DNA of 64,000 nt from Salipaludibacillus agaradhaerens (lineage in GTDB: Bacteria; Bacillota; Bacilli; Bacillales; Salisediminibacteriaceae), in NCBI RefSeq assembly GCF_002019735.1, contig NZ_KV917378.1, forward strand, positions 248,001 through 312,000, written 5' to 3'. Below, one piece after another: positions 2,687 to 61,941 of the stretch (position 1 is its first letter; each line of letters starts with the position of its first letter). The position numbers were made by a program, and so were the translations under genes. Under the pieces are notes generated by a model. It was given only the letters and a program-made list of their open reading frames with translations. It ran no database searches and had not been told where the DNA came from.

Positions 2687-3469
2687 ATGCCCCGAGCAAA
2701 AGAAGCACCGACGTTAGAGAATGAATGGAAGCGTTGGCAGACAGATCGAGACCCTGTAGCAGGTGACCGTTTAGTCGAAGCCTACTTGCACCTTGTGGAA
2801 TTTCATGTTCAAAGAATAAGTGCAAATTTACCACGTAGCGTTCAGGTTGAGGATCTTAGAAGTCACGGTTTAATCGGTCTCTATGATGCCTTGGAGAAAT
2901 TCGATCCAGGGCGTGAACTAAAATTTGATACGTATGCCTCGTTTCGTGTTCGTGGGGCTATTATCGATGGTTTAAGACAAGAAGACTGGCTTCCGAGATC
3001 GGTTCGTGACAGGTCTAAGAAAATTGACCAGGCGATAGAAGCGCTAGAGCAAAGACATGGAAGAAATATTTCACCAGCAGAAGTAGCAGAGGAGTTAGGG
3101 TTAAAAGAGGATGAAGTTGTTCATACGATGAATGAATCTTTCTTCTCTAATTTATTATCCATTGATGAACCTACCCAGGATTCAGAGAAAAATGATACGT
3201 ACTCTTCAACCATTGTGGACCAGCAAACCCTCACCCCTGAAGAGACGCTTGGAAAAAAAGCGGTCTATGAGGAGCTGGCGGAGATTTTAAAAACTTTAAA
3301 CCGCAATGAGCAGCTCGTGATTTCGCTATTTTATTTTGAAGAATTTACGCTAACTGAAATTGGTGAAGCGTTGAATTTATCCACATCTAGAATTTCCCAA
3401 ATTCACTCTAAAACCATTTTCAAGCTTCAACAAAAATTAAAGAATAAAGTTAGCGATTTCTTTTCATAA
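2687..3469 (+). CDS. sigD: RNA polymerase sigma factor SigD (flagellar sigma-28)
   Basis: 260 residues, FliA/SigD length. Region 2 includes RSHGLIGLYDALEKFDPG and the DTYASFRVRGAIIDGLRQ stretch characteristic of sigma-28. Region 4 has the helix-turn-helix FTLTEIGEALNLSTSRISQIHS near the C-terminus. It directs transcription of late flagellar, chemotaxis and autolysin genes. The ATG has AGGAGG upstream. It lies near the end of the fla/che operon as in B. subtilis and is followed by a terminator. Confidence 0.97.
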   Translation: MPRAKEAPTLENEWKRWQTDRDPVAGDRLVEAYLHLVEFHVQRISANLPRSVQVEDLRSHGLIGLYDALEKFDPGRELKFDTYASFRVRGAIIDGLRQEDWLPRSVRDRSKKIDQAIEALEQRHGRNISPAEVAEELGLKEDEVVHTMNESFFSNLLSIDEPTQDSEKNDTYSSTIVDQQTLTPEETLGKKAVYEELAEILKTLNRNEQLVISLFYFEEFTLTEIGEALNLSTSRISQIHSKTIFKLQQKLKNKVSDFFS

Positions 3470-3504
3470 CGAAGATATTACACAGCAGTGTCTTCGTTTT
3501 TTTG
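3468..3504 (+). terminator. Intrinsic terminator after sigD
   Basis: The inverted repeat AACGAAGA...TCTTCGTT is followed by a run of seven T residues immediately after the sigD stop. The stem also has an inner ACAC/GTGT extension. It would end most fla/che transcripts before the FapA-like gene. Confidence 0.8.
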
Positions 3505-3687
3505 TACACGAATTAAATACCTCCTGGGGAGTAGAGATACTGTTGTTCAGTAGAAGGGTATTACAAGATAATCACCATATAGATGCCTTAATTTTGACAT
3601 ATGATTGGGTAGTTGTTTAAAGTTAGCCATCAGATATTACAAGTTGGTGTAAAATTATATGTAGAGTTAAAAAGAGGGGGGATTCAG

Positions 3688-5061
3688 ATGGAGGAGTTAC
3701 ACGAGATTTTAGCTATAGAGATAAGTAGAGATAAAATGTCGGCTAAGTTAAAACAGTTACAGCCATTGCCTGAAGAGATAACGGTCGATGATTTAAAAAA
3801 ATTTGTTAAAGAAAATGGTGTTACATATGGCCTTTTTGAAGAAGTTATTGAGAAAATAGTGACCGGAAATGACACTTTACCAACCATCATTGCTAGAGGA
3901 CTTGATCCTGTTGACGGGGAGAACGCATATATTTGGTCAATTTTAGAAGAGTTGCAAGACGAAGATAACACTCAACAAAACGATCAAGAAGATATCAATT
4001 TAAAAAAAGTTATCGAAATACCTTCTGTTAAAAATGGCGAATTAGTCGGAAAAAAAATAGAAGCGACTGAAGAGAAAAATGGTGTTAATGTGTATGGCGA
4101 GGATGTAAAGGCTAAGCCTGGACGTGATCTAAAGCTACGCCCAGGAAAGAACACCCGGGTTGACGGACTAGAAATATTCTCAACAATCGACGGACAGATT
4201 TCCGTTGAACCTAAAGTGATTCATGTTTTCCCTATTTACGAGGTTAATGGGGATGTAGACATGAAAGTTGGAAACATTGATTTTATTGGCAATGTTAATA
4301 TTAGAGGAAATGTTCCTTCTGGTTTTGAAATTAAGGCTCAAGGAGATATAAGGGTACATGGCTCGGTAGAAGCGGCGATATTAAAAGCAGGGGGCTCAAT
4401 ATTTATTCAACAAGGAGTCGTAGCCCAAGGAGGCGGTATAATATCTGCCGAAGGGGATGTAGAGACATCATTTTTAAATCAGGCTAATATCGAGGCTGGT
4501 GGAGATGTAAAGGTCACTAAATCAATTTTACACAGCACCGTTAAAGCTCAAGGTTATGTATACTGCAATCAGAATAGAGGTAACATTGTGGGCGGCTCTA
4601 TCTCATCCGGGAAAGGCATTGAGGTTAATGAGGTAGGTAATCATATGAATACACCGACTACCCTTTTTCTCGGTGTGAGTGAGGAAGCAGTAGCATCTGA
4701 AAGCAAATATAAAACACAAATGCTTCAAGCACAAGAAAATACTCAAAAGCTAGGTGTTTTGCTGAAAAACATCGTGGATAAAGAGAAAACATCATCTTTA
4801 ACTGCCAAAGAAAAGGTGATGAAATTAAAAATAAAAAATTCTTTAATGGATGCTAACAAAGAATTAAATAGTGCAAAAGATAAGCTAGATGAGATCAAAG
4901 AACTATTCGAAAATCAAGATCAAGCTGAAATCCGAATCATTAAAGCCATTCACGCAAATACAGACTTACATTTTGGTAAGTATAGAAGAAAAATTGTCAC
5001 AACACATGAAAACGTGCTCTTTAAACTAGATCGTAGTGAAATTTCGTTTGAACCATTATAA
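3688..5061 (+). CDS. FapA/DUF342 family protein
   Basis: About 457 residues from the ATG preceded by GAGGGGGGA; a longer in-frame start upstream lacks a ribosome site. The middle (about 150-330) is a series of short GxI/V repeats such as VNGDVDMKVGNIDFIGNV and AEGDVETSFLNQANIEAGG, the right-handed beta-helix/polymer-forming pattern of DUF342 (Flagellar Assembly Protein A). The C-terminal third is a helical, probably coiled-coil region rich in K/E. FapA proteins are often found beside flagellar genes, and placement after sigD fits that. The molecular activity is not established. It is not in the B. subtilis operon as I recall it. Confidence 0.88.
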   Translation: MEELHEILAIEISRDKMSAKLKQLQPLPEEITVDDLKKFVKENGVTYGLFEEVIEKIVTGNDTLPTIIARGLDPVDGENAYIWSILEELQDEDNTQQNDQEDINLKKVIEIPSVKNGELVGKKIEATEEKNGVNVYGEDVKAKPGRDLKLRPGKNTRVDGLEIFSTIDGQISVEPKVIHVFPIYEVNGDVDMKVGNIDFIGNVNIRGNVPSGFEIKAQGDIRVHGSVEAAILKAGGSIFIQQGVVAQGGGIISAEGDVETSFLNQANIEAGGDVKVTKSILHSTVKAQGYVYCNQNRGNIVGGSISSGKGIEVNEVGNHMNTPTTLFLGVSEEAVASESKYKTQMLQAQENTQKLGVLLKNIVDKEKTSSLTAKEKVMKLKIKNSLMDANKELNSAKDKLDEIKELFENQDQAEIRIIKAIHANTDLHFGKYRRKIVTTHENVLFKLDRSEISFEPL

Positions 5062-5136
5062 TTAAAAGAGATCATGATATAATGAGTGATAACTAAATTG
5101 AAACAAGGGATTCTCAAGCGGACAGGAGGAATTTCA

Positions 5137-5454
5137 ATGAGTGGACTACGGTCAATTGAAATGCAAGTCGCGTTACCGAGAACACAAACTGCGGGTAAAA
5201 TTCAAGATCAAATGCAACAACGGTCAATGGTCGCCCAAGAACATATGGCACAAGCACAAGAAGAAAAAGATATTAAACAAAAAAAAACTGTGACTGAAAC
5301 AGAATTTAAAGAAAAAAATCGTTTGGACGCAGATGCTGAGTCAGGGAAAGGTCATAGCCAGTCTGATGGACAGCGAAAACAAAATAAGGGCGAAGAAGAA
5401 GAAAAAGTCGTTAAACACCCATATAAAGGTGTTCGGTTCGACGCATCTTGGTAG
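5137..5454 (+). CDS. Small hydrophilic protein, unknown function
   Basis: About 105 residues, starting at the ATG after GACAGGAGGAATTTCA. The N-terminus (MSGLRSIEMQVALPRTQTAG) is followed by a Gln/Met-rich stretch and then a strongly charged, probably disordered or helical part with many Lys/Glu. It ends in HPYKGVRFDASW. No membrane segment or known catalytic motif. It sits between the FapA-like gene and the SwrB-like gene, 15 bases from the latter, so it is probably co-transcribed. I recall similar uncharacterised proteins at this place in other Bacillaceae, but I cannot assign a function. Confidence 0.75.
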   Translation: MSGLRSIEMQVALPRTQTAGKIQDQMQQRSMVAQEHMAQAQEEKDIKQKKTVTETEFKEKNRLDADAESGKGHSQSDGQRKQNKGEEEEKVVKHPYKGVRFDASW

Positions 5455-7959: not shown

Positions 7960-8117
7960 TTTATCACAGATAACCAACCGTCCTTAAAACTCTCGGTTAG
8001 AAATAGAGAGCAGAGTCCATCTATTTAGGCGAGAGATTACGGACGCTAATGCTGATTATTCAACTACCAATCAGTGGAGAAGAACGAAGACACCCACTGA
8101 TTGAAGGTACGTTTTAT
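7960..8117 (+). repeat. Dispersed intergenic repeat, copy R1
   Basis: About 155 bases between tsf and pyrH. It shares its 5' end (TTTATCAC.GATAAC), an AATAGAG core, the GGACGCTAAT segment, AATCAGTGG, AGAAGAACGAA and the tail GAAGGTACGTTTTAT with other copies at 11360 (minus strand), 33328, 39088 and 61801. Hairpin: AATCAGTGG at 8069-8077 with CCACTGATT at 8094-8102. AATCAG can alternatively pair with CTGATT at 8052-8057. No coding potential. Confidence 0.85.
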
Positions 8118-9489: not shown

Positions 9490-9761
9490 ATTACTTTATG
9501 TCATTTTTCAACGAGATTAGCCGAATCCATATCAACAATGTTGATAATGGAGATAACGTACCTCATCACATTCTAAGTCATTTTAATGAAGACGTCGTTT
9601 ATCTGAAAATTTTAAAATGCCGCTATTGAGGGGACTTTTGAATAAGCTCTTATACATAAGTTTAGTTCGTGATAGAATATAAAGGTACCACAGGGAGTTA
9701 ATTATGTGATCTGCTTAACTGACTACAGCTTGCAGTGATTGGATCATGTTGGAGGAATATC

Positions 9762-10532
9762 ATGCTTAATAAGTTAAGAGGACATCTTAAAAGCGTCCAG
9801 AATGATCCAGAGTCAATGGATCAGTTGACAGAAGAAAATTTTCCAAAACATATAGCGATTATTATGGATGGAAATGGTCGGTGGGCTAAAAAACGTGGGT
9901 TACCGAGAGTGGCAGGCCATCGTGAGGGAATGAGTGTCGTCAGAAAAATTGTTAGACACGCTAATAAATTAGGAGTGTCTATTTTGACACTCTATGCTTT
10001 CTCTACGGAAAATTGGAAACGACCGAAAACCGAGGTTGATTTTTTAATGAGGCTGCCTGAAAGATTTTTAAAAGCGGAATTACCGACACTCATAAAGGAA
10101 AACGTCGTCGTTAGAATAACAGGTGATCGACATAACTTGCCTGATTATACGAAAAGGGCGGTCGATGAAGCCGTTGCTACCACAGCGAGTAATACAGGAT
10201 TGGTGTTAAATTTTGCACTTAACTATGGAAGTCGTTCTGAAATTATAGATGGTATGAAATCTCTTTTTCAGGATGTACAGGATGGCAAATTAGCAATAGA
10301 AGACCTTTCTGAAGCCTCCTTTTCAAAACATTTAATGACAGCAGGGCTTGACGACCCAGATTTATTAATTCGGACGAGTGGCGAATTGCGATTGAGCAAT
10401 TTTATGCTTTGGCAGCTTGCATATTCAGAGTTTTGGTTTACTGATGTGTTGTGGCCTGACTTTTCTCAAGAACATCTAGAAGAAGCTATTAAAGTTTATC
10501 AAAAAAGACAGCGGCGATATGGCGGAGTTTAG
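9762..10532 (+). CDS. uppS: Undecaprenyl diphosphate synthase (cis-prenyltransferase)
   Basis: 256 residues from the ATG preceded by GGAGGAATATC. The catalytic Asp and diphosphate-binding loop are in IMDGNGRWAKKRGLPRVAGH; other signatures are LYAFSTENWKRP and the C-terminal RTSGELRLSNFMLWQLAYSE. It makes the C55 lipid carrier for peptidoglycan and teichoic acid synthesis from FPP and IPP. cdsA follows 12 bases later, as in most Firmicutes. Confidence 0.97.
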   Translation: MLNKLRGHLKSVQNDPESMDQLTEENFPKHIAIIMDGNGRWAKKRGLPRVAGHREGMSVVRKIVRHANKLGVSILTLYAFSTENWKRPKTEVDFLMRLPERFLKAELPTLIKENVVVRITGDRHNLPDYTKRAVDEAVATTASNTGLVLNFALNYGSRSEIIDGMKSLFQDVQDGKLAIEDLSEASFSKHLMTAGLDDPDLLIRTSGELRLSNFMLWQLAYSEFWFTDVLWPDFSQEHLEEAIKVYQKRQRRYGGV

Positions 10533-10544
10533 GGAGGTATTAAC

Positions 10545-11339
10545 ATGAAGCAGCGAGTTATTACAGGTGTCATTGCAGGAGCAGCTTTTGTTACCCTTAT
10601 CATTCTAGGTAACCTTCCATTCACTCTTGTTATGATCGCTTTAGCAACAATAGGCATGTGGGAATTGTTAAGGATGAAAAGGATCCACCCGTTAAGTATT
10701 CGAGGGATTGCAGGAATGCTATTTATGTGGCTTTTATTAATACCGGAAAATGTTATAGGGGTATTTGATTGGGTTCACCTTGAGCGATTGGAGCTTTTTC
10801 TATTGCTCATTATCGTCTTACTGGCATTGACGGTCATCACTAAAAATAGATTTACGTTTGATGAAGCAGGCTTTGTCGTGTTAGCTTCAGTGTATGTAGG
10901 TTTTGGTTTTCATTACTTTATGCACGCCCGATTTTTAGAAAATGGACTAGCCATGATCTTCTTTATTTTAATCATTGTCTGGTCAACGGATTCTGGAGCT
11001 TATTTTGCTGGGCGTCGCTTTGGAAAACATAAATTATGGCCAGAAATTAGCCCTAAGAAGACAATTGAAGGTTCGATGGGTGGCACACTATTAGCCCTTC
11101 TAATTGGTAGTATCTATACTGTCTTTTTTCCTGTATTTTCTACATGGATGACAACTGTATTATTTATGATTGTTGTTTCTCTAGCAGGACAGTTAGGAGA
11201 TTTAGTTGAATCAGCTTTTAAACGGCATTATGCTGTTAAAGATTCTGGACACGTATTACCAGGTCATGGAGGTATCCTTGACCGATTTGATAGCTTAATA
11301 TTTGTCATGCCAATTATCTATTTGCTCGGTTTTCTTTAG
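10545..11339 (+). CDS. cdsA: Phosphatidate cytidylyltransferase
   Basis: 264 residues with about seven or eight membrane segments. The CdsA signature near the C-terminus is clear: SPKKTIEGSMGG, GDLVESAFKRHYAVKDSG and PGHGGILDRFDS, the last providing the conserved Asp residues. It forms CDP-diacylglycerol from phosphatidic acid and CTP at the membrane. It starts 12 bases after uppS with AGGGAGG. The downstream gap contains repeat R2 on the opposite strand. Confidence 0.97.
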   Translation: MKQRVITGVIAGAAFVTLIILGNLPFTLVMIALATIGMWELLRMKRIHPLSIRGIAGMLFMWLLLIPENVIGVFDWVHLERLELFLLLIIVLLALTVITKNRFTFDEAGFVVLASVYVGFGFHYFMHARFLENGLAMIFFILIIVWSTDSGAYFAGRRFGKHKLWPEISPKKTIEGSMGGTLLALLIGSIYTVFFPVFSTWMTTVLFMIVVSLAGQLGDLVESAFKRHYAVKDSGHVLPGHGGILDRFDSLIFVMPIIYLLGFL

Positions 11340-11359
11340 CGTTTAGTTGTCCTTTCCAG

Positions 11360-11495
11360 TGAGAGGATATTTGTTCCACTGATTGCCAGTTGAGTGAATC
11401 AGGACATTTAGCGTCCGTTAGCTCCCCTTGAATGGATTTGATCTCTCCTCTCTATTTTGAGCAGGGTGGGTTTATGGCCGATTATCTATGATAAA
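11360..11495 (-). repeat. Dispersed intergenic repeat, copy R2 (reverse orientation)
   Basis: Read on the minus strand it starts TTTATCATAGATAATCGGCC, continues with CAAAATAGAGAGGAGAG and ACGGACGCTAA, and ends with CTGATTCACTCAACTGGCAA then TCAGTGGA, matching copies R1, R4 and R5 over most of their length. The GAAGG(T)TCGTTTTAT tail is absent or diverged. The hairpin CTGATT-N12-AATCAG is conserved. It fills most of the cdsA-dxr gap. Confidence 0.8.
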
Positions 11496-11555
11496 TTGTT
11501 GGTAAGTGATGAATTATGCCGTGGAATACAATTTTTTCGTTAGGAGTAAGATGTG

Positions 11556-33328: not shown

Positions 33329-33437
33329 TTTATCACAGAAACTCTCCGTAAAACGCTCGCCTCAAAATAGAGAGTAGAGAAAACCTATTTAAGCGGGAGA
33401 TAACGGACAAGCCTCTCCTGATTAAAGAGGTGTTTTA
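33328..33437 (+). repeat. Dispersed intergenic repeat, copy R3 (3'-shortened)
   Basis: Starts TTTTATCACAGA, then CCGTAAAACGCTCGCCTC, AAAATAGAGAGTAGAGA, CTATTTAAGCGGGAGATAA and CGGACAAGCC, closely following R4. The 3' hairpin and tail are lost, ending near GTGTTTTATAT. Within a 670-base gap without a gene. Confidence 0.75.
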
Positions 33438-39087: not shown

Positions 39088-39240
39088 TTTTATCACGGAT
39101 AACTGGCCGTAAAACGCCCGCCTAAAAAATAGAGCGCAGAGATAAAAATCTATTTAGGTAGGAGATAATGGGCGCTGATATTCAACGAGCAATCAGTGGA
39201 AGAAGAACGAAAAAGCCCACTGTTTGAAGGTTCGTTTTAT
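39088..39240 (+). repeat. Dispersed intergenic repeat, copy R4
   Basis: Full-length copy: starts TTTTATCACGGATAACTGGCC and includes CCTAAAAAATAGAGCGCAGAG, CTATTTAGGTAGGAGATAA and GGGCGCTGATATTCAACGAG. It continues AATCAGTGGAAGAAGAACGA, then CCCACTGTTTGAAGG and TTCGTTTTAT. Stems CGCCC/GGGCG and CAGTGG/CCCACTG can form. It lies upstream of rnjB. Confidence 0.85.
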
Positions 39241-39280
39241 TAATTTAGAATTAAAGAACGCGTCTCCTTCTTTTCTCACT

Positions 39281-56588: not shown

Positions 56589-56621
56589 ACGTGTATTAGT
56601 CTCGTATAAAATCGTTTATTT

Positions 56622-56660
56622 AAGATTCCGATTATCGTCAGATGATCGGAATCTTTTTCG
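56622..56660 (+). terminator. Intrinsic terminator after recA
   Basis: AAGATTCCGAT and ATCGGAATCTT with TATCGTCAGATG between, then TTTTCG. The following 225 bases up to the end of the minus-strand regulator hold no feature I can assign. Confidence 0.88.
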
Positions 56661-56886
56661 TAGTTACTTTTAAAAAAACTTCTATGTCTATGTGACTTCC
56701 TAAGTTCACCGCCGTGGCATGAATCTATATTTTAATATTCTTATCGTTTCTCCTCATAATCTTTTCATCTCCATTAACAGCATTCACTACACTAGATCAT
56801 TGACGTTATATAGCTTTTCTCTTTGAAAGAAGCTTAATAACAAGCAACTGACAAGGTTCTATTGGATCATAACAATTACAGAATTA

Positions 56887-57762
56887 CTAAGTAGTATCTG
56901 TTTTTAAATCTTTTATATAGTCGTCTAGCTTTTTGACAGACTTTGAATCGCTTTTTGCTTGAAAGACATCTTTTGAAAGTTGAAAAAAATGATGGGCCTC
57001 ATCAAGGTTATTTTGCTTTATATGAGCAACGGCACTCTGAAAATAGAGTTCACCTAATAAATAAAACGATTCAATTTCTAATGAGAAAGACACGCCTTTA
57101 TTGCAATAGAAAAGTGACTCCTTATTGTCATCCAGTTCGTAGAGTGATTTTGCTAAATTGTAGTAGACTCGAACAATAATCCGAGGATTTATTTCCATGA
57201 AAGATTGATCTTTTATCTTTAAAATATTTTTGAAGATTGCTATGCCGCCATCTAGTTTGTTTGCCTCGCAGTAAATGATGGCTTTACTGTTTAAGATTTC
57301 GATATCTTGAGGTGTTAAGTGATTGGTAGGGCTCATAGCTAATGAGGTATCCAGATGGAGAATGGCATGTTCAAAATGATCATTTAGGTAGTAGTGCAGT
57401 ATACCTTCGTGCCACTTGATAAATTGTTGCTCATGGACATGTTTAAAGCTAGGATGGTTCTTCAGTTTGTTTACTAGCCGTCTCACTTCTTTATAGTTTT
57501 TTTGACGAATTTCTTTACGAATGGCTTTTCTACTCTCTTGAATAAATGCATATTGTGGCTTTATAAGAATGTCTATTAGAAATCCTGGTTCGACACCTAG
57601 CTTTAAAGCCATTTGTACTAATGTATGAACATAAGGGCTGATTTCACCATTTTCAATTTTACTAATTTGAGACTGACTACAAATATCTTTGGCAAATTCT
57701 TTTTGGGTATAACCTAATGATTGCCTTAACTCTTTAATCGTCTTTCCTAAATGATTTAACAT
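56887..57762 (-). CDS. PlcR-like RRNPP quorum-sensing regulator (XRE domain plus TPR-like repeats)
   Basis: 291 residues, similar to PlcR in length and layout. An XRE helix-turn-helix lies at about 5-60 (LGKTIKELRQSLGYTQKEFA, then SQSQISKIENGEISP). The rest is helical and carries degenerate TPR repeats, for example RVYYNLAKSLYELDDNKESL and LGELYFQSAVAHIKQNNLDEA. RRNPP proteins (Rap, Rgg, NprR, PlcR, PrgX) bind re-imported short peptides in the TPR groove. The ATG follows AAGGAGAAAAGCT on the minus strand. A divergent 38-residue propeptide starts 186 bases away, which supports a peptide-regulator pair. Specific partner and targets are inferred. Confidence 0.85.
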   Translation of the reverse strand: MLNHLGKTIKELRQSLGYTQKEFAKDICSQSQISKIENGEISPYVHTLVQMALKLGVEPGFLIDILIKPQYAFIQESRKAIRKEIRQKNYKEVRRLVNKLKNHPSFKHVHEQQFIKWHEGILHYYLNDHFEHAILHLDTSLAMSPTNHLTPQDIEILNSKAIIYCEANKLDGGIAIFKNILKIKDQSFMEINPRIIVRVYYNLAKSLYELDDNKESLFYCNKGVSFSLEIESFYLLGELYFQSAVAHIKQNNLDEAHHFFQLSKDVFQAKSDSKSVKKLDDYIKDLKTDTT

Positions 57763-57780
57763 AGCTTTTCTCCTTATAAA

Positions 57781-57796
57781 TATTCCTAAAAGAATA
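57781..57796. promoter_or_regulatory. Inverted repeat TATTC-N6-GAATA near the regulator start
   Basis: A perfect five-base inverted repeat lies 19 bases upstream of the regulator start codon, overlapping where its own transcript would begin. Candidate operator for autoregulation. A second longer-spaced pair, GATATG (57817) and CATATC (57848), lies further into the divergent region. No canonical PlcR box (TATGNAAN4TTNCATA) was found. Confidence 0.35.
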
Positions 57797-57867
57797 CTGA
57801 TTGGAAAAAATTAAGGGATATGCCTCGTTTTTTTGACGCTACCTTCTCATATCGTTAATTATTGTAA

Positions 57868-57896
57868 AATCATTCACTGTTAATTTCTATTATACT
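57868..57896 (+). promoter_or_regulatory. Likely activator-dependent promoter of the peptide operon
   Basis: TATACT at 57891-57896 is a good -10 (five of six) but the hexamer 17 bases upstream (AATCAT) is a poor -35, a pattern typical of promoters needing an activator. An AT-rich inverted repeat TTTAAAT-N9-ATTTAAA follows at 57912-57934 in the predicted leader. The propeptide start codon is about 45 bases downstream of the predicted start point. Confidence 0.45.
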
Positions 57897-57948
57897 CATA
57901 TTAGTTAAGTGTTTAAATATTAAATCTATTTAAAAGTGAGGGCGAGAA

Positions 57949-58065
57949 GTGATTAAACTATTCACTAGTATTCTATTAGCTTCGTCATTATTGTTTAGTT
58001 CTTCTACTGAAGTAGTTAGTTCTTCATATGAGATATCACCTAAGATTTTTGACTATGAACATTAA
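57949..58065 (+). CDS. PapR-like secreted signalling propeptide
   Basis: 38 residues, GTG start preceded by GTGAGGGCGAGAA (GAGGG site). N-terminal MIKLFTSILLASSLLFSS is a short Sec signal; the tail reads SSSYEISPKIFDYEH. PapR of the Bacillus cereus group is a comparable secreted propeptide whose C-terminal hepta- or pentapeptide ends in P-F-E plus an aromatic residue or His and activates PlcR. The aromatic-Glu-His ending here, the size and the adjacent PlcR-like gene together make a pheromone precursor likely. The mature peptide is not known. Confidence 0.75.
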   Translation: MIKLFTSILLASSLLFSSSTEVVSSSYEISPKIFDYEH

Positions 58066-58070
58066 TTTTA

Positions 58071-58080
58071 CAAGGAGGTG
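58071..58080 (+). promoter_or_regulatory. Near-perfect ribosome binding site of the 16-residue ORF
   Basis: CAAGGAGGTGATT is complementary to the 16S rRNA 3' end over essentially the whole anti-Shine-Dalgarno, with a six-to-nine base spacing to ATG at 58087. It is among the strongest sites in the window, which argues that the tiny ORF is truly translated. Confidence 0.85.
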
Positions 58081-58086
58081 ATTCAT

Positions 58087-58137
58087 ATGAAAAAACAAGA
58101 ATGGTTAGTTGTTAAAGCAGAATGGTTAGTGGTTTAA
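58087..58137 (+). CDS. 16-residue peptide with duplicated EWLVV, candidate RiPP precursor
   Basis: The full product is MKKQEWLVVKAEWLVV. EWLVV occurs twice, separated by KA, so the ORF looks like a tiny leader (MKKQ) plus two copies of a core. The two copies are not identical in codons (TTAGTTGTT versus TTAGTGGTT), so the peptide repeat is kept despite base change. It lies between the signalling propeptide and a HemN-family radical SAM gene and is followed within ten bases by a terminator, a layout common for RiPP precursors. Alternatives: a pheromone releasing EWLVV, or a Trp-codon leader peptide. No database match was tested. Confidence 0.6.
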   Translation: MKKQEWLVVKAEWLVV

Positions 58138-58145
58138 TTACGACA

Positions 58146-58182
58146 GAAAAAGTGTGAAGGGCTATCCTCACACTTTTTCTCA
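58146..58182 (+). terminator. Intrinsic terminator/attenuator between the peptide ORF and the radical SAM gene
   Basis: GAAAAAGTGTGA and TCACACTTTTTC form a perfect 12-base stem, extended by GG/CC inside, followed by T. It starts nine bases after the stop codon of the 16-residue ORF. Partial read-through would give abundant peptide and less enzyme. Confidence 0.85.
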
Positions 58183-58202
58183 TTAAAAAACGAGGTGATG
58201 AG

Positions 58203-59570
58203 ATGAAACAGATTCCTTATAATGAAATTCCTCAGTTATGGAACTTTTTTTATCCGATTGCAGGTGCTGTTAATCAATCACAAGAAATCGCTGAAAATAT
58301 AACTAAAATGCAGCTCTCACGCACCGCGGATAATAATGACGGGTTAAATAGCCTTTACTTACACATTCCGTTTTGTGATACTATCTGTACATTTTGCCCA
58401 TTTATAAAAACGACAAACTATGCTGATACGCTAGAGCCGTATTTAGATGCATTAATTGAAGAAATCAAGATGGTTTCATCGATGCCTAGAATAAAAAGTA
58501 AAAAGATTGATGCGATTTATATCGGGGGAGGGACCCCATCAGTTTTAAAGCCTGATCAAATTAAACGACTAGGTGAAGCGATAACACATTCCTTTGTATT
58601 AGCAAATGATTATGAGTGGACATTTGAATGTGCGGCACTTACAGCCACTGAAGATCGTATAAAAGCAATGGCTGAGATCGGTGTAAATCGTGGTAGCTTT
58701 GGTGTACAAACCTTTAATCAAAAGTATAAAAAAATGTTCAACTTACAGTGGACGATGGACCACATTCAGTCCGCAAGAGATTTAATGATGAGCTACTTTA
58801 ACGCCTGTAACATGGATTTACTTTATCATCTTCCTGGTCAAACACATGAAGAATTAATGGAAGACGTCGATCACGCCATCGCTTTAGGAACATCAAGTAT
58901 TGATGTGTATCCATTAGAATATTTAGCAACCTCCAATTCTTTTCTAAGAAAGATAATAAATAAACAGTTAGAAAATCCTCCTACTCCTATTGAAAAAATC
59001 AAACAAAATAAACTAATCTATAACAAATTAAACGACTCAGGTTATTTTCAAAATTATGTTTACACGTTCACAAAAAAAGAGGCTAAATATAAACGCTTTA
59101 AATTTAGTGAAACAATATATGGAACTTATGAGGATGAATTTATTGCTCTAGGGGTTGGAGGGAGATCAACGATAAAAGGCTTAGCTTACGATAATATAGC
59201 TGATATCAAAACATATATTGCAACTGTTAATCAAGGGAAGCAACCTGTTGCAAGGGCAATAGACTATCATGCATACGAGCGAGGCTTAATCTTCTTTCCT
59301 AAAAAAATGCGGATTTCTCGTCAAGACCTTCGTAAATATGGACTCGACAAGACATATAAGCAAAAATTTGAGGAATTAGAAGAGAAACAACTTATTATAC
59401 AAGATGAGGATCAAATAGTGTTAACAGATGAAGGGAAAATATGGTTTGCAAATATTATGGTTGATCTTTTTCCAGAAGATCAAAGAAAAAAATTGAATCA
59501 AGTCATAGGAAATATTCAAGAGGCAAAGGAATGGTACGAAGAATCAAAAGTACTCGAAACGACAAATTAA
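58203..59570 (+). CDS. HemN/HemW-family radical SAM enzyme, candidate peptide maturase
   Basis: 455 residues, ATG after CGAGGTGATGAG. The [4Fe-4S] motif is CxxxCxxC at Cys58, Cys62 and Cys65 in YLHIPFCDTICTFCPF. The SAM-binding GGGTPS lies at 108-113 and GVNRGSFGVQTFNQ matches the HemN-family barrel. A C-terminal winged-helix (HemN_C-like) segment ends in QIVLTDEGKIWFANIM. Residues N-terminal to the cluster lack the HemN coproporphyrinogen oxidase signature. HemN-like enzymes include class C radical SAM methylases and cyclopropanases acting on natural products. Context with a tiny peptide gene and exporter suggests peptide modification; no heme genes are nearby. Confidence 0.85.
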   Translation: MKQIPYNEIPQLWNFFYPIAGAVNQSQEIAENITKMQLSRTADNNDGLNSLYLHIPFCDTICTFCPFIKTTNYADTLEPYLDALIEEIKMVSSMPRIKSKKIDAIYIGGGTPSVLKPDQIKRLGEAITHSFVLANDYEWTFECAALTATEDRIKAMAEIGVNRGSFGVQTFNQKYKKMFNLQWTMDHIQSARDLMMSYFNACNMDLLYHLPGQTHEELMEDVDHAIALGTSSIDVYPLEYLATSNSFLRKIINKQLENPPTPIEKIKQNKLIYNKLNDSGYFQNYVYTFTKKEAKYKRFKFSETIYGTYEDEFIALGVGGRSTIKGLAYDNIADIKTYIATVNQGKQPVARAIDYHAYERGLIFFPKKMRISRQDLRKYGLDKTYKQKFEELEEKQLIIQDEDQIVLTDEGKIWFANIMVDLFPEDQRKKLNQVIGNIQEAKEWYEESKVLETTN

Positions 59571-59599
59571 TCATAACAAGGTTTAATGGGGGAGGTTTT

Positions 59600-59656
59600 G
59601 TGAACTCCCTCTTAACAATTAAGGGGGACATAGACATTGTCGATTTGGAAAAATAA
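59600..59656 (+). CDS. Possible 18-residue leader ORF before the MFS gene
   Basis: GTG start four bases after GGGGGAGG, product MNSLLTIKGDIDIVDLEK, overlapping the MFS start region by 20 bases in another frame. A small hairpin (GGGAG / CTCCC) covers its own ribosome site. Such leader ORFs regulate some macrolide exporters, but this could equally be chance. Confidence 0.2.
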   Translation: MNSLLTIKGDIDIVDLEK

Positions 59657-60878
59657 AAATTTTAATTACTTATATTTTGGCCAATTGTTTTCCGTTTTCG
59701 GTGATTGGATCAAGACGGTTACACTCATTACCTTTATTTATTATTTGACGGGTGATGCGAAAATGACCGGTGTTTTATTTATATTAGCTATTCTTCCTCA
59801 AATAGTTGTCTCATTCTTCTCAGGTCCAATTATAGATAAAAATAATAAAAAGAAACTCATTATCTTCTTAGATATTGTTCGGTTTCTGTTAGGTATTGTG
59901 CTTGTTTATGCAGCTTATATCGAAAGTTTGGGGCTGTTACTAAGTGTCATTTTTATTACGAATATTTTCTCGGCTATTTTTGTACCAACTCGTTCGTCCT
60001 TTATCCCTCAAATTATTAAAAAGGAGCAGATTGTCAGTGCAACTAGTGCCATTTTGATTAGTTTTAATGTGATGATGGTTGTGGCCACCGCTATGGGTGG
60101 CATTTTATCAGAATGGCTAGGTGTGATTCCAATCTTGATAATAGCTGCGGGGACGTATTTAATTGCTGGATTATGTATTCTCCCTATTACCTATGAGCAT
60201 AAAAAAGATAGTGATAGTGAACGTGACAGTTCTAGTTATTGGAATGATTTAAAGGTTGGATATGAAGCAACAATTTCTTCACCACAACTTAGAAGTACAT
60301 TTATATTAAATGGGACGAGGGATTTCGTTTTAGGTGCGGTTAATGTCATGTTTAATGCGATTATATTAAGTACATTCCTTGCTGGAGAGACAGGTATTGG
60401 ATTTGGCTATACAGCTACAGCTTTAGCGTACATTGTTGTTGGCTTTTACGTAAAAAAACAAATAAAAGTGAAAACAATGGAAAATGTTCGACTATTTTCT
60501 AAAATGTCGCTGTTCTTAACGATTGCCTACGGTATATTGTTGGCAGTTGGTTTTTCTACGAATTCCTTATATTTATTCCTTATATTTGTATTTTTAATGA
60601 ATATACCTCAAGGAACGATGAATATATTATTTGAATCCAGTGTTATGTACAATGCTAAGGATGATCAGAAAGGAAGGATTTTTTCTCTACTAATAACGTT
60701 TACGAGATTAGGCTATTTGTTTGGGCTACTTTTCTATATGGCACTAGGAGATTATTTGTCTTTGATAAGCGTTGGCTGGATATTATGTTTATTGTTAAGT
60801 GTAGTTGGCTTAACAAATTACATGGTTTATCGTACACATGGTCACTCAGTCACAAATGAAAAACAAATTGTAAGTTAG
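59637..60878 (+). CDS. MFS exporter of the peptide locus
   Basis: 413 residues, TTG start after AAGGGGGACATAGACA. About twelve membrane helices; the N-terminal NFNYLYFGQLFSVFGDWIKT, and GPIIDKNNKKKLIIFLDIVRF with the loop 2-3 MFS motif, resemble MFS_3/MefA-EntS-type drug and siderophore exporters. A charged cytoplasmic loop (EHKKDSDSERDSSSYWND) separates the two halves. Between the radical SAM and DinB genes, it is the obvious candidate to export the modified peptide or give immunity. Substrate unproven. Confidence 0.85.
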   Translation: MSIWKNKNFNYLYFGQLFSVFGDWIKTVTLITFIYYLTGDAKMTGVLFILAILPQIVVSFFSGPIIDKNNKKKLIIFLDIVRFLLGIVLVYAAYIESLGLLLSVIFITNIFSAIFVPTRSSFIPQIIKKEQIVSATSAILISFNVMMVVATAMGGILSEWLGVIPILIIAAGTYLIAGLCILPITYEHKKDSDSERDSSSYWNDLKVGYEATISSPQLRSTFILNGTRDFVLGAVNVMFNAIILSTFLAGETGIGFGYTATALAYIVVGFYVKKQIKVKTMENVRLFSKMSLFLTIAYGILLAVGFSTNSLYLFLIFVFLMNIPQGTMNILFESSVMYNAKDDQKGRIFSLLITFTRLGYLFGLLFYMALGDYLSLISVGWILCLLLSVVGLTNYMVYRTHGHSVTNEKQIVS

Positions 60879-60888
60879 GAGAGATATT

Positions 60889-61413
60889 ATGGAAATAGAA
60901 ACGTTTATAGGTAGTTGGGAAAATGCTAGAAAGCGTACAATGAGATATGTAGAGAATTTTCCTTCTGATTTAATAAACTTTCAGCCAAGTAAGGAGACAT
61001 TTAGTTTCTGTAAGCAGATTTTGCATATTATTAGTTGGGAACAAATTATGTTTTCTCGATTATTAGATGAGATACCTGTTGAAGATGAATTTCGGGAGGA
61101 TGAAGTAAAAGATAAATCAGAGTTACAGAATTTATTAGTCATGGTAACTAATGAAACACAAGAAAAAATACAACAAATGAAAAAAAGTGAATGGAAAAAA
61201 ACGATTCCGATCGATGGAAATATGATCCCTTTTAAAGATGTATTTTTAGACCTGATTGAGCATGAAGCCCACCATAGAGGCCAATTAGCTGTTTACTACC
61301 GGCTGTCAGGTCTCCAACCACCAAGTTATTTAGAGGAAGAATTTGATATTAATAAGACACATTTATTAACACGACCACATGTTGAGGTGTTTATATCAAG
61401 TATGATTATATAG
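60889..61413 (+). CDS. DinB-fold protein at the end of the peptide locus
   Basis: 174 residues. The four-helix DinB pattern is evident, with likely metal ligands His46 (QILHIISWEQ), His125 and His129 in EHEAHHRGQLAVYYR. DinB-like proteins include metal-dependent thiol transferases and many of unknown function. Starts ten bases after the MFS gene with GGAGAGATATT, so it is co-transcribed. A role in self-protection or in tailoring the product is possible but not shown by the sequence. Confidence 0.85.
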   Translation: MEIETFIGSWENARKRTMRYVENFPSDLINFQPSKETFSFCKQILHIISWEQIMFSRLLDEIPVEDEFREDEVKDKSELQNLLVMVTNETQEKIQQMKKSEWKKTIPIDGNMIPFKDVFLDLIEHEAHHRGQLAVYYRLSGLQPPSYLEEEFDINKTHLLTRPHVEVFISSMII

Positions 61414-61428
61414 GAAATGAGTGTTGTC

Positions 61429-61468
61429 TGTCCCCACTGCCTAGGAGAGTAGATGGGGTCTTTTTCTG
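61429..61468 (+). terminator. Intrinsic terminator after the DinB gene
   Basis: GTCCCCACT and AGATGGGGTC-type arms around a 17-base loop containing CCTAGG, followed by TTTTTCT. It closes the peptide operon. Confidence 0.7.
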
Positions 61469-61800
61469 CTAAAAAATGTGTTTGTTGGTAGAGAATAGTG
61501 AGGAGTGTGTTATATATTTTTTCTAGTCAAATGGTTTACAGCGATCAATTGATCAACGTAAACTACCATGGCTACCGTAAAAGGCTCTTAATTTTGATGT
61601 CACCATGTCAGACAGATACTATAATATATGTGCAAACTAATGGCTCTGAAAAAGCGACTATTGAAGTGGTCATCTGTAGCGGGAAGTATTAATTATTATC
61701 CATTTATATAGTTTGAGTTAACTCATAGATGATAATCGAAATTAAGAAGGATTTTTCCAGTTTGAGCATCCCATGAAATGGTCTTTTTTGCGAGCTCTAA

Positions 61801-61941
61801 TTTTATCGCAAATAACCGTCCTAAAGAGAGCAAAGATAAATCTATAGAGGCGAGAGACAATGGACGCTAATGTCTTGATTTACTCAACGCCAATCAGTAG
61901 GAGAAGAACGAAAACGTCCAGTGATTGAAGGTTCGTTTTAT
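61801..61941 (+). repeat. Dispersed intergenic repeat, copy R5
   Basis: Starts TTTTATCGCAAATAACCGTCC and contains GGCGAGAGACAATGGACGCTA, then TTGATTTACTCAACGCCAA, AATCAGTAGGAGAAGAACGA and GTGATTGAAGGTTCGTTTTA. CGTCC/GGACG arms can pair. It lies in the 810-base gap between the peptide locus and rny. The rest of that gap shows no gene I can support. Confidence 0.85.

Follow-up and report, generated by a model that had tools for sequence, protein, structure and literature searches.

A 64,000-nucleotide stretch of the Salipaludibacillus agaradhaerens genome (contig NZ_KV917378.1, positions 248,001 to 312,000; here called the window, its genome being G000, one contig of 4.32 Mb) carries, between recA and rny, a minus-strand regulator gene and, divergent from it, a 38-codon open reading frame (ORF), a 16-codon ORF, and genes for a radical S-adenosylmethionine (SAM) enzyme (rSAM), a major facilitator superfamily (MFS) protein and a DinB-fold protein (Table 1). 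Both recA and rny were named from their own sequences. An initial annotation had read these parts as a candidate quorum-sensing-controlled peptide modification locus, and every part that it named was found at or near the position that it gave. The 16-codon gene encodes a short basic N terminus followed by two EWLVV cores and has no conventional leader. Tiny genes of the same character lie near all close relatives of the enzyme gene that were examined, and we regard the link between peptide and enzyme as well supported.

Table 1. Features of the recA-rny locus, in window coordinates
Feature	Coordinates	Strand	Remarks
Inserted cassette, recA to rny	~56597..61916	.	limits approximate
Hairpin terminator 3' of recA	56622..56655	+	RNA fold, -21.5 kcal/mol, z -5.2
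PlcR-like helix-turn-helix (HTH)-tetratricopeptide repeat (TPR) regulator of the RRNPP type, 291 aa	56887..57762	-	Pfam RNPP_C 1.1e-22, HTH_3 5e-14
Divergent promoter region, regulator to propeptide	57763..57948	.	similar in G030, weakly in G382
Secreted-type propeptide, candidate pheromone, 38 aa	57949..58065	+	GTG start; C-terminal SPKIFDYEH
Candidate precursor gene, 16 aa, MKKQEWLVVKAEWLVV	58087..58137	+	Shine-Dalgarno aaggaggt at 58072-58079; relatives near 18/18 clade rSAM genes
Core repeat 1, EWLVV	58099..58113	+	
Core repeat 2, EWLVV	58120..58134	+	one silent change relative to repeat 1
Hairpin between 16-aa ORF and rSAM gene	58145..58180	+	-18.7 kcal/mol, z -6.1; absent from the initial annotation
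HemN/HutW-like rSAM enzyme, 455 aa	58203..59570	+	CX3CX2C at C58, C62, C65
MFS exporter (predicted), 413 aa	59637..60878	+	TTG start; MFS_1 1.5e-25
DinB/YfiT-fold protein, 174 aa	60889..61413	+	DinB_2 1.2e-15; 6iz2 2e-8

In a maximum-likelihood tree of 30 rows, in which the outgroup rows are long-branched, 18 rSAM proteins (43 to 100% identical; 15 genomes or records, all Bacilli) form one clade with support of 95/98, apart from a group B of five proteins and a group C of four. All 18 clade genes have tiny genes nearby, from one to seven each, giving 35 genes of 8 to 35 codons that encode 60 Trp residues and not a single Cys. The residue following Trp is Ile in 41 cases, Leu in 15, Val in 3 and Phe in 1; the third residue after it is Val in 46, Ile in 7, Leu in 3 and another residue in 4 (V/I/L in 56/60), and the residue preceding it is Glu in 32. 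More than one Trp is encoded by 15 of the 35 genes, which contain internal repeats (up to four per ORF), and arrays reach seven genes; repeats within genes and gene arrays are both features of multi-core ribosomally synthesized and posttranslationally modified peptides (RiPPs). Peptides encoded upstream of the rSAM gene in relatives include MKKEWVALKNEWVAL (C. kochii), MRTEWLVV (G382) and MKRNEWIAI (G403). Three genomes (L039, L040, and L041) carry two neighboring clade rSAM genes, each with a peptide type of its own: short-gene arrays for one and single-gene NWII-type repeats for the other. Relatives of the enzyme gene that consistently lacked peptide ORFs would have spoken against the initial annotation; what we found instead is a putative precursor encoded beside the modifying enzyme in 18 of 18 cases, the co-occurrence expected of a RiPP, and this makes the 16-residue peptide, as had been supposed, the likely substrate of the HemN-like enzyme.

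The tiny genes lie upstream of the rSAM gene on the same strand in 14 of the 18 cases. G535 has four of them behind the MFS gene, and in G525, G515, and G545 they are downstream of and convergent to the operon. At these last three loci a look at the operon strand found no peptide, and the convergent genes came from a scan of both strands that was prompted by these misses, so these loci do not test the association independently. Shine-Dalgarno sequences of 33 tiny genes match AGGAGG or AGGGGG, 30 of them at 6/6 bases and three at 5/6. Several candidates were kept out of the 35: MIFFLFQQSRWVLVYF, which lies within the C. kochii MFS gene and was taken as chance; a 35-codon ORF starting MREWLSIVN (G555), which shares its frame with the tiny gene that comes after it and is missing from the upstream-scan list; and the G382 propeptide, some longer ORFs lying within MFS genes and a small number of further ORFs in which a hydrophobic residue follows Trp. 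The gene tables of the C. kochii and Alicyclobacillus plasmids, which are known to be incomplete, list no gene at the tiny-gene sites; genes of 8 to 16 codons fall below the length that annotation pipelines usually report.

Within the 700 nucleotides (nt) upstream of each of the 18 clade genes (12,600 nt in total), Shine-Dalgarno-preceded tiny ORFs with W-[ILVFM] number 23 on the sense strand and 0 on the opposite strand, against an average of 0.92 in shuffled upstream sequences; the G382 propeptide, with its Trp-Val pair, and a G604 ORF with a TTG start are among these 23 but are not counted as precursors. A stricter motif, sought on both strands, gave 34 ORFs near the genes (203,168 nt), one of which sits within an MFS gene and was taken as chance, versus 2 elsewhere in the same loci (251,526 nt). 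No such tiny ORF was found upstream of seven group B or outgroup rSAM genes. A loose pattern search of six genomes proved too unspecific and was not used. Within the window itself, the repeat codons GARTGGYTNGTNGT occur twice versus 0.02 times expected. Nine comparisons of repeats or orthologues yielded 20 silent differences in 44.7 sites versus 6 replacement differences in 201.3 sites; as the comparisons were selected for resemblance and three of them share genes, the ratio is an indication rather than a formal test of the coding constraint expected of a RiPP precursor.

The hairpin between the 16-codon gene and the rSAM gene is probably a partial terminator. Its z of -6.1 was obtained on a 52-nt stretch, versus -1.6 on a 140-nt stretch that includes part of the rSAM gene. 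A hairpin lies 3' of the precursor in all four genomes folded, with the z of highest magnitude in the window and values of -2.0 to -2.9 in G382, C. kochii, and G745.

The assignment of the enzyme to the HemN family, made in the initial annotation, holds. The protein matches Pfam Radical_SAM (5.1e-17); its best NCBIfam model is HutW/ChuW-like (6.3e-66), at 222.9 bits versus a curated cut-off of 400 that it does not reach; and its sole solved relatives at a threshold of 0.001 are HemN (4.1e-24) and NocN (2.5e-17). No SPASM family is among its Pfam and NCBIfam matches at 0.001. The CX3CX2C motif is present in the alignment of the 18 clade proteins, and its combination with HemN-family homology is that of class C rSAM methylases. 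Y52, R163, and D205, invariant in 18/18, align with Y34, R153, and D196 of NocN, and the equivalent of NocN Y96, which like S225 belongs to the residues that bind a second SAM, is Tyr in 11 and Phe in 7 of the 18, all NocN positions having been transferred through one pairwise alignment. As excerpts of PMC12871812 describe it, NocN Y34, R153, and D196 contact the second SAM, and the substrate of NosN and NocN is an indolic acid belonging to a RiPP pathway. The alignment supports class C-type chemistry without proving it. Because Trp is invariant in the tiny peptides and the substrate of NosN and NocN is indolic, Trp, by analogy, is likely to be the residue modified, with the indole ring as the target.

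The regulator combines an HTH domain with an RNPP/TPR region, as PlcR/PapR-type regulators do, and its best solved relative is PlcR (2qfc, 5.3e-28); at the level of sequence, the initial description of a PlcR-like regulator gene that diverges from one for a small propeptide, hydrophobic at its N terminus, is thus borne out. The 38-residue propeptide combines a hydrophobic stretch on its N-terminal side with a polar C terminus. Its G030 counterpart has two substitutions, which precede the unchanged last nine residues, and G382 has in the same place an ORF of 21 to 24 residues ending FVFDWVHG versus PKIFDYEH in the window, the regulators of window and G382 being 32% identical. In the flanks that were fetched, a search for the regulator was successful in 3 of the 15 genomes (the window genome, G030, and G382), each with a small propeptide ORF; propeptides were sought only where a regulator was found. 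An HTH-domain profile run on the fetched loci (E <= 0.5) matched the window and two other clade genomes, G030 and G382; its matches beyond the clade were two ORFs of the Alicyclobacillus plasmid L006 and a small Xenorhabdus ORF. Since the regulator was found in these three genomes only, control by quorum sensing appears to be an addition peculiar to one lineage, and the six-gene order, which the initial annotation had proposed to seek in other genomes, was seen in the same three and is not general. For the operon in the window we consider such control, with the propeptide acting as pheromone, more likely than not.

An MFS gene is present in 15/15 genomes. The MFS protein of the window also matches TIGR00900 (3.1e-42) and EntS (7.1e-15), both below their cut-offs, and in the DinB-fold protein H46, H125, and H129 are conserved in an alignment of five.

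Sequence comparison shows the cassette to have been inserted between recA and rny. Homology with G029 (L064) ends at about 56596 and restarts at about 61917, and recA adjoins rny in 6/6 same-genus genomes without the cassette, which among the seven other same-genus genomes (G024 to G030) is present in G030 only. Because six of these seven lack it and the nearest rSAM proteins after that of G030 belong to two other families (those of G382 and G745), the comparisons point to horizontal gain of the cassette. The statement that the locus is bounded by terminators could be upheld in part: the hairpin after recA is strong (z -5.2), but the one after the DinB gene is weak (RNA fold, z -0.8) and folding of 51 nt 3' of the regulator showed no hairpin. 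A dispersed short repeat lies at 61825-61941, 7960-8117, 11376-11500, 33329-33408, and 39187-39241 of the window (73 to 84% alike); it matches the rSAM-MFS intergenic stretch of G030, and the window's own rSAM-MFS gap has no match.

The rSAM protein was searched in whole genomes, in samples that overlap and several of which include the window genome. It was found in 2/35 genomes of its own family (E <= 1e-60), in 3/397 of an order sample and 14/398 of a class sample (both at E <= 1e-45; of the 14, 11 are in the window's clade and 3 are distant), and in 1/398 of a phylum sample (E <= 1e-60), namely, the window genome itself. Around other clade members, matches were found in 1/29 genomes of the G382 family (E <= 1e-100), 1/23 of the G745 family and 2/39 of the G604 order (both at E <= 1e-60), 7/14 of the G515 order (E <= 1e-90), and, in contrast to the patchy presence within the window's genus, 7/7 of the G555 family (E <= 1e-100). 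Six of 72,556 plasmid records match at 1e-40, among them a Cytobacillus kochii protein (45%) that falls in the clade. A phage collection gave distant matches only (26 to 30% identity, 14 records), viral contigs gave no rSAM match, and a genome contig search gave one distant rSAM locus; E. coli genomes had no DNA-level match to the Klebsiella plasmid gene described below, and PADLOC returned only HTH-level and other weak matches. The G745 cluster (L034) is flanked by two direct 2-kb copies (3145-5179 and 9524-11548, 82% alike), each carrying a gene for a protein of 436 to 437 residues without a Pfam match.

Starting from the observed gene set, the motif, its co-occurrence with the enzyme, the coding constraint, and the insertion, we hypothesize that the product of the cassette is a small RiPP. 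The 16-codon gene would supply a leaderless precursor, with its basic N terminus and two EWLVV cores, and the tiny peptides are very probably the substrates of the rSAM enzyme, a HemN-like protein akin to the two-SAM class C methylases that would modify the invariant Trp. Its most likely reaction may be a one-carbon transfer to the indole ring, which we put forward tentatively, with a Trp cross-link as the alternative. The basic linkers could be cut by housekeeping peptidases, the MFS protein would export the product, and the DinB-fold metalloprotein might tailor it or protect the producer. The hairpin behind the precursor may hold the level of precursor transcript above that of enzyme transcript. 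The 38-residue propeptide would be secreted and reimported, its C-terminal end activating the PlcR-like regulator and thereby turning the operon on. Taken as a whole, minimal leaderless RiPP precursors that are Trp-modified by a class C-type rSAM enzyme, exported by an MFS protein and, here, quorum switched are, with good confidence, the best explanation of the locus.

Several observations weigh against it. With positions transferred through the pairwise alignment mentioned above, the equivalent of NocN S225 is Asp in 18/18 clade proteins and that of NocN C133 is Val in 10/18. Neither a dedicated peptidase nor a peptide-recognition domain was recognized in the window cluster by Pfam or NCBIfam. 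Two G745 tiny genes have a weaker Shine-Dalgarno sequence (GAGG only); this pair fails the Shine-Dalgarno rule of our ORF scans and is counted only in the final list of 35. At the group B loci L045 to L048 no convincing tiny Trp gene was seen, chance-like ORFs being present in three of the four. No regulator was found within the fetched flanks in 12/15 genomes, and a PlcR box is absent from 57763-57948 at up to 2 mismatches; with the same consensus, taken from general background, the whole window has 39 PlcR-box-like matches (<=2 mismatches) versus 50.3 expected.

A different fate for the peptides, in which they are consumed to yield a small Trp- or Glu-Trp-derived molecule handled by the exporter and the DinB-fold protein, as pyrroloquinoline quinone is made from PqqA, would suit the very short cores, the Glu that precedes Trp in 32/60 cases, the lack of a recognized maturation peptidase, and the below-cut-off match of the MFS protein to EntS, the enterobactin exporter. 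However, Glu is not invariant, and an aliphatic residue or Phe follows Trp in 60/60 cases, which suggests that these residues are retained in the product or required for recognition, and we consider consumption of the peptides unlikely.

If the tiny ORFs were leader peptides that regulate the rSAM/MFS operon by ribosome stalling or attenuation, in the manner of TnaC and drug-resistance leaders, the enzyme would act on a small molecule and not on the peptide. Such a role would fit short, Trp-containing ORFs with strong Shine-Dalgarno sequences that precede the rSAM gene in 14/18 cases and have a hairpin behind them in the window as well as in 3/3 relatives folded. Position led us to reject it: tiny genes that lie downstream of the MFS gene, as in G535, or convergent to the operon, as in G525, G515, and G545, cannot serve it as leaders. 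Neither the arrays, which reach seven genes, nor the ORFs with as many as four repeats are leader-like, and no Rfam match was found; attenuation is an improbable account.

Just as little credence, in our view, is due to the possibility that the tiny peptide is itself a leaderless quorum signal and the operon its target. As excerpts of PMC10518010 (Aggarwal 2023) present them, leaderless communication peptides (LCPs) are mostly 8- to 10-residue hydrophobic peptides encoded by leaderless genes beside RRNPP receptors, most of their target genes diverge from the receptor gene, and three main categories of target, RiPP clusters among them, are distinguished. Several of our peptides fit LCPs in length and hydrophobicity, and an RRNPP receptor adjoins in the window. 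The possibility is disfavored because a signal would need a receptor (PMC10518010, PMC13361665), and no RRNPP-type receptor was found within the fetched flanks in 12/15 genomes; moreover, tandem cores, variants of up to 35 residues and multigene arrays are at odds with it, and the three receptor-bearing genomes also carry a separate propeptide ORF. Finally, a heme-degrading HutW/ChuW or coproporphyrinogen enzyme with only incidental tiny ORFs, as the best NCBIfam model (ChuW/HutW, 6.3e-66) could suggest, was rejected as very improbable on the cut-off (222.9 bits versus 400) and the context, in which the window neighbors between recA and rny are a regulator, an MFS and a DinB gene and not heme genes (hut genes were not searched for specifically) and peptide genes lie near 18/18 clade members.

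Peptide ORFs near rSAM genes outside the clade (in an Alicyclobacillus, a Xenorhabdus, and a Glaesserella plasmid and at locus L044) also speak for the RiPP reading. The Alicyclobacillus plasmid (L006:4213-9106) carries a gene for an HTH-TPR regulator divergent from a 10-codon ORF, MRDIVWDIVW (tandem DIVW), and from rSAM and MFS genes. Gram-negative plasmid relatives with rSAM and MFS genes are L007:1204-4834 (Glaesserella), L063:4426-7577 (Xenorhabdus), and L008:6001-11003 (Klebsiella). A P450 gene stands beside the rSAM gene in the Glaesserella and Klebsiella plasmids, and the latter has an ISL3 transposase gene between its P450 and MFS genes. The Glaesserella and Xenorhabdus plasmids have a SpeD-like SAM decarboxylase gene and, beside the rSAM gene, genes for peptides of 23 to 24 residues that have ME(S/N)A(M/I)ELF in common and Trp at the end. 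In group B, locus L044 (G535) has two ORFs just 3' of the rSAM gene (minus strand, 7117 and 7386, reverse-complement coordinates), one of 34 codons with four PIIW-type repeats and one of 9 codons, MERNILIIW. At L045 to L048, the group B rSAM genes come after an rSAM gene that carries a B12-binding domain, for which Pfam was run on L045 alone; one chance-like ORF at these loci ends TIW inside the B12-type gene, and the C terminus of the B12-type protein of L048 contains YYPERWE. A candidate peptide gene near the group B enzymes, MATYEL...PERWE, was withdrawn, being the C terminus of the neighboring B12-type rSAM protein.

Taken jointly, these patterns incline us, slightly, towards a new RiPP class. 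Its precursor as a whole would be a leaderless Trp tag, W-[ILVF]-x-V in Bacilli and, in a sister group extending to gammaproteobacterial plasmids, the mirror arrangement of two aliphatic residues followed by Trp. The tag would be read by a two-SAM HemN-like enzyme, perhaps using decarboxylated SAM where a SpeD-like gene is present. Its genes, at 8 codons among the shortest proposed for any precursor, would form arrays with as many as seven members, and a PlcR-type switch would have been captured in one lineage. HemN-like enzymes are best known as heme enzymes or tailoring methylases; if the proposal is correct, they can also mature some of the smallest peptides on their own, a bare octapeptide would serve to study how a leader-free precursor is recognized, and the class could be found in any genome through its motif.

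This kind of RiPP system is apparently undescribed: among the titles and abstract openings that our searches of the open literature turned up, none described a HemN-like enzyme with such precursors, although subscription journals were mostly uncovered and a description elsewhere is possible. One close parallel is provided by the streptococcal radical SAM RiPPs (RaS-RiPPs) under Rgg/SHP control, streptide and tryglysin, in which an RRNPP regulator, a pheromone and an rSAM enzyme come together (excerpts of PMC13361665 and PMC8092268). The window likewise pairs an RRNPP-type regulator and small propeptide with an rSAM enzyme, but its regulator is PlcR-like and not Rgg, and its enzyme is HemN/HutW-like without a SPASM match. 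Measured against what is known of RaS-RiPP precursors and exporters, the window and its nearest relatives differ as well in their 8- to 16-residue EW-core precursors and MFS exporter. The PlcR/PapR system resembles the locus in regulator architecture, as nearest solved relative and in the adjacent secreted-type propeptide; unlike in the familiar papR gene order, the propeptide here is divergent from the regulator, its C terminus differs from that of PapR, and no PlcR box was found between them. LCP genes differ from the tiny genes, which mostly have no receptor found, form repeats and arrays and lie near rSAM genes in 18/18 cases. Biarylitides, with a five-residue precursor and a two-residue leader (excerpts of PMC12951456), share the extreme shortness of the precursor. 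Among the window cluster proteins, unlike in biarylitides, there is no P450; P450 genes do stand beside two distant Gram-negative rSAM relatives. Biarylitide chemistry is P450 cross-linking and is not known to involve an rSAM enzyme. Finally, class C methylases such as NosN, NocN, TbtI, and C10P share with the clade the HemN family, the CX3CX2C motif and several second-SAM residues. They are known to act in thiopeptide pathways or on nonribosomal substrates, whereas the HemN-like enzyme described here is the sole evident maturase of its cluster, and its putative substrate is a bare short peptide.

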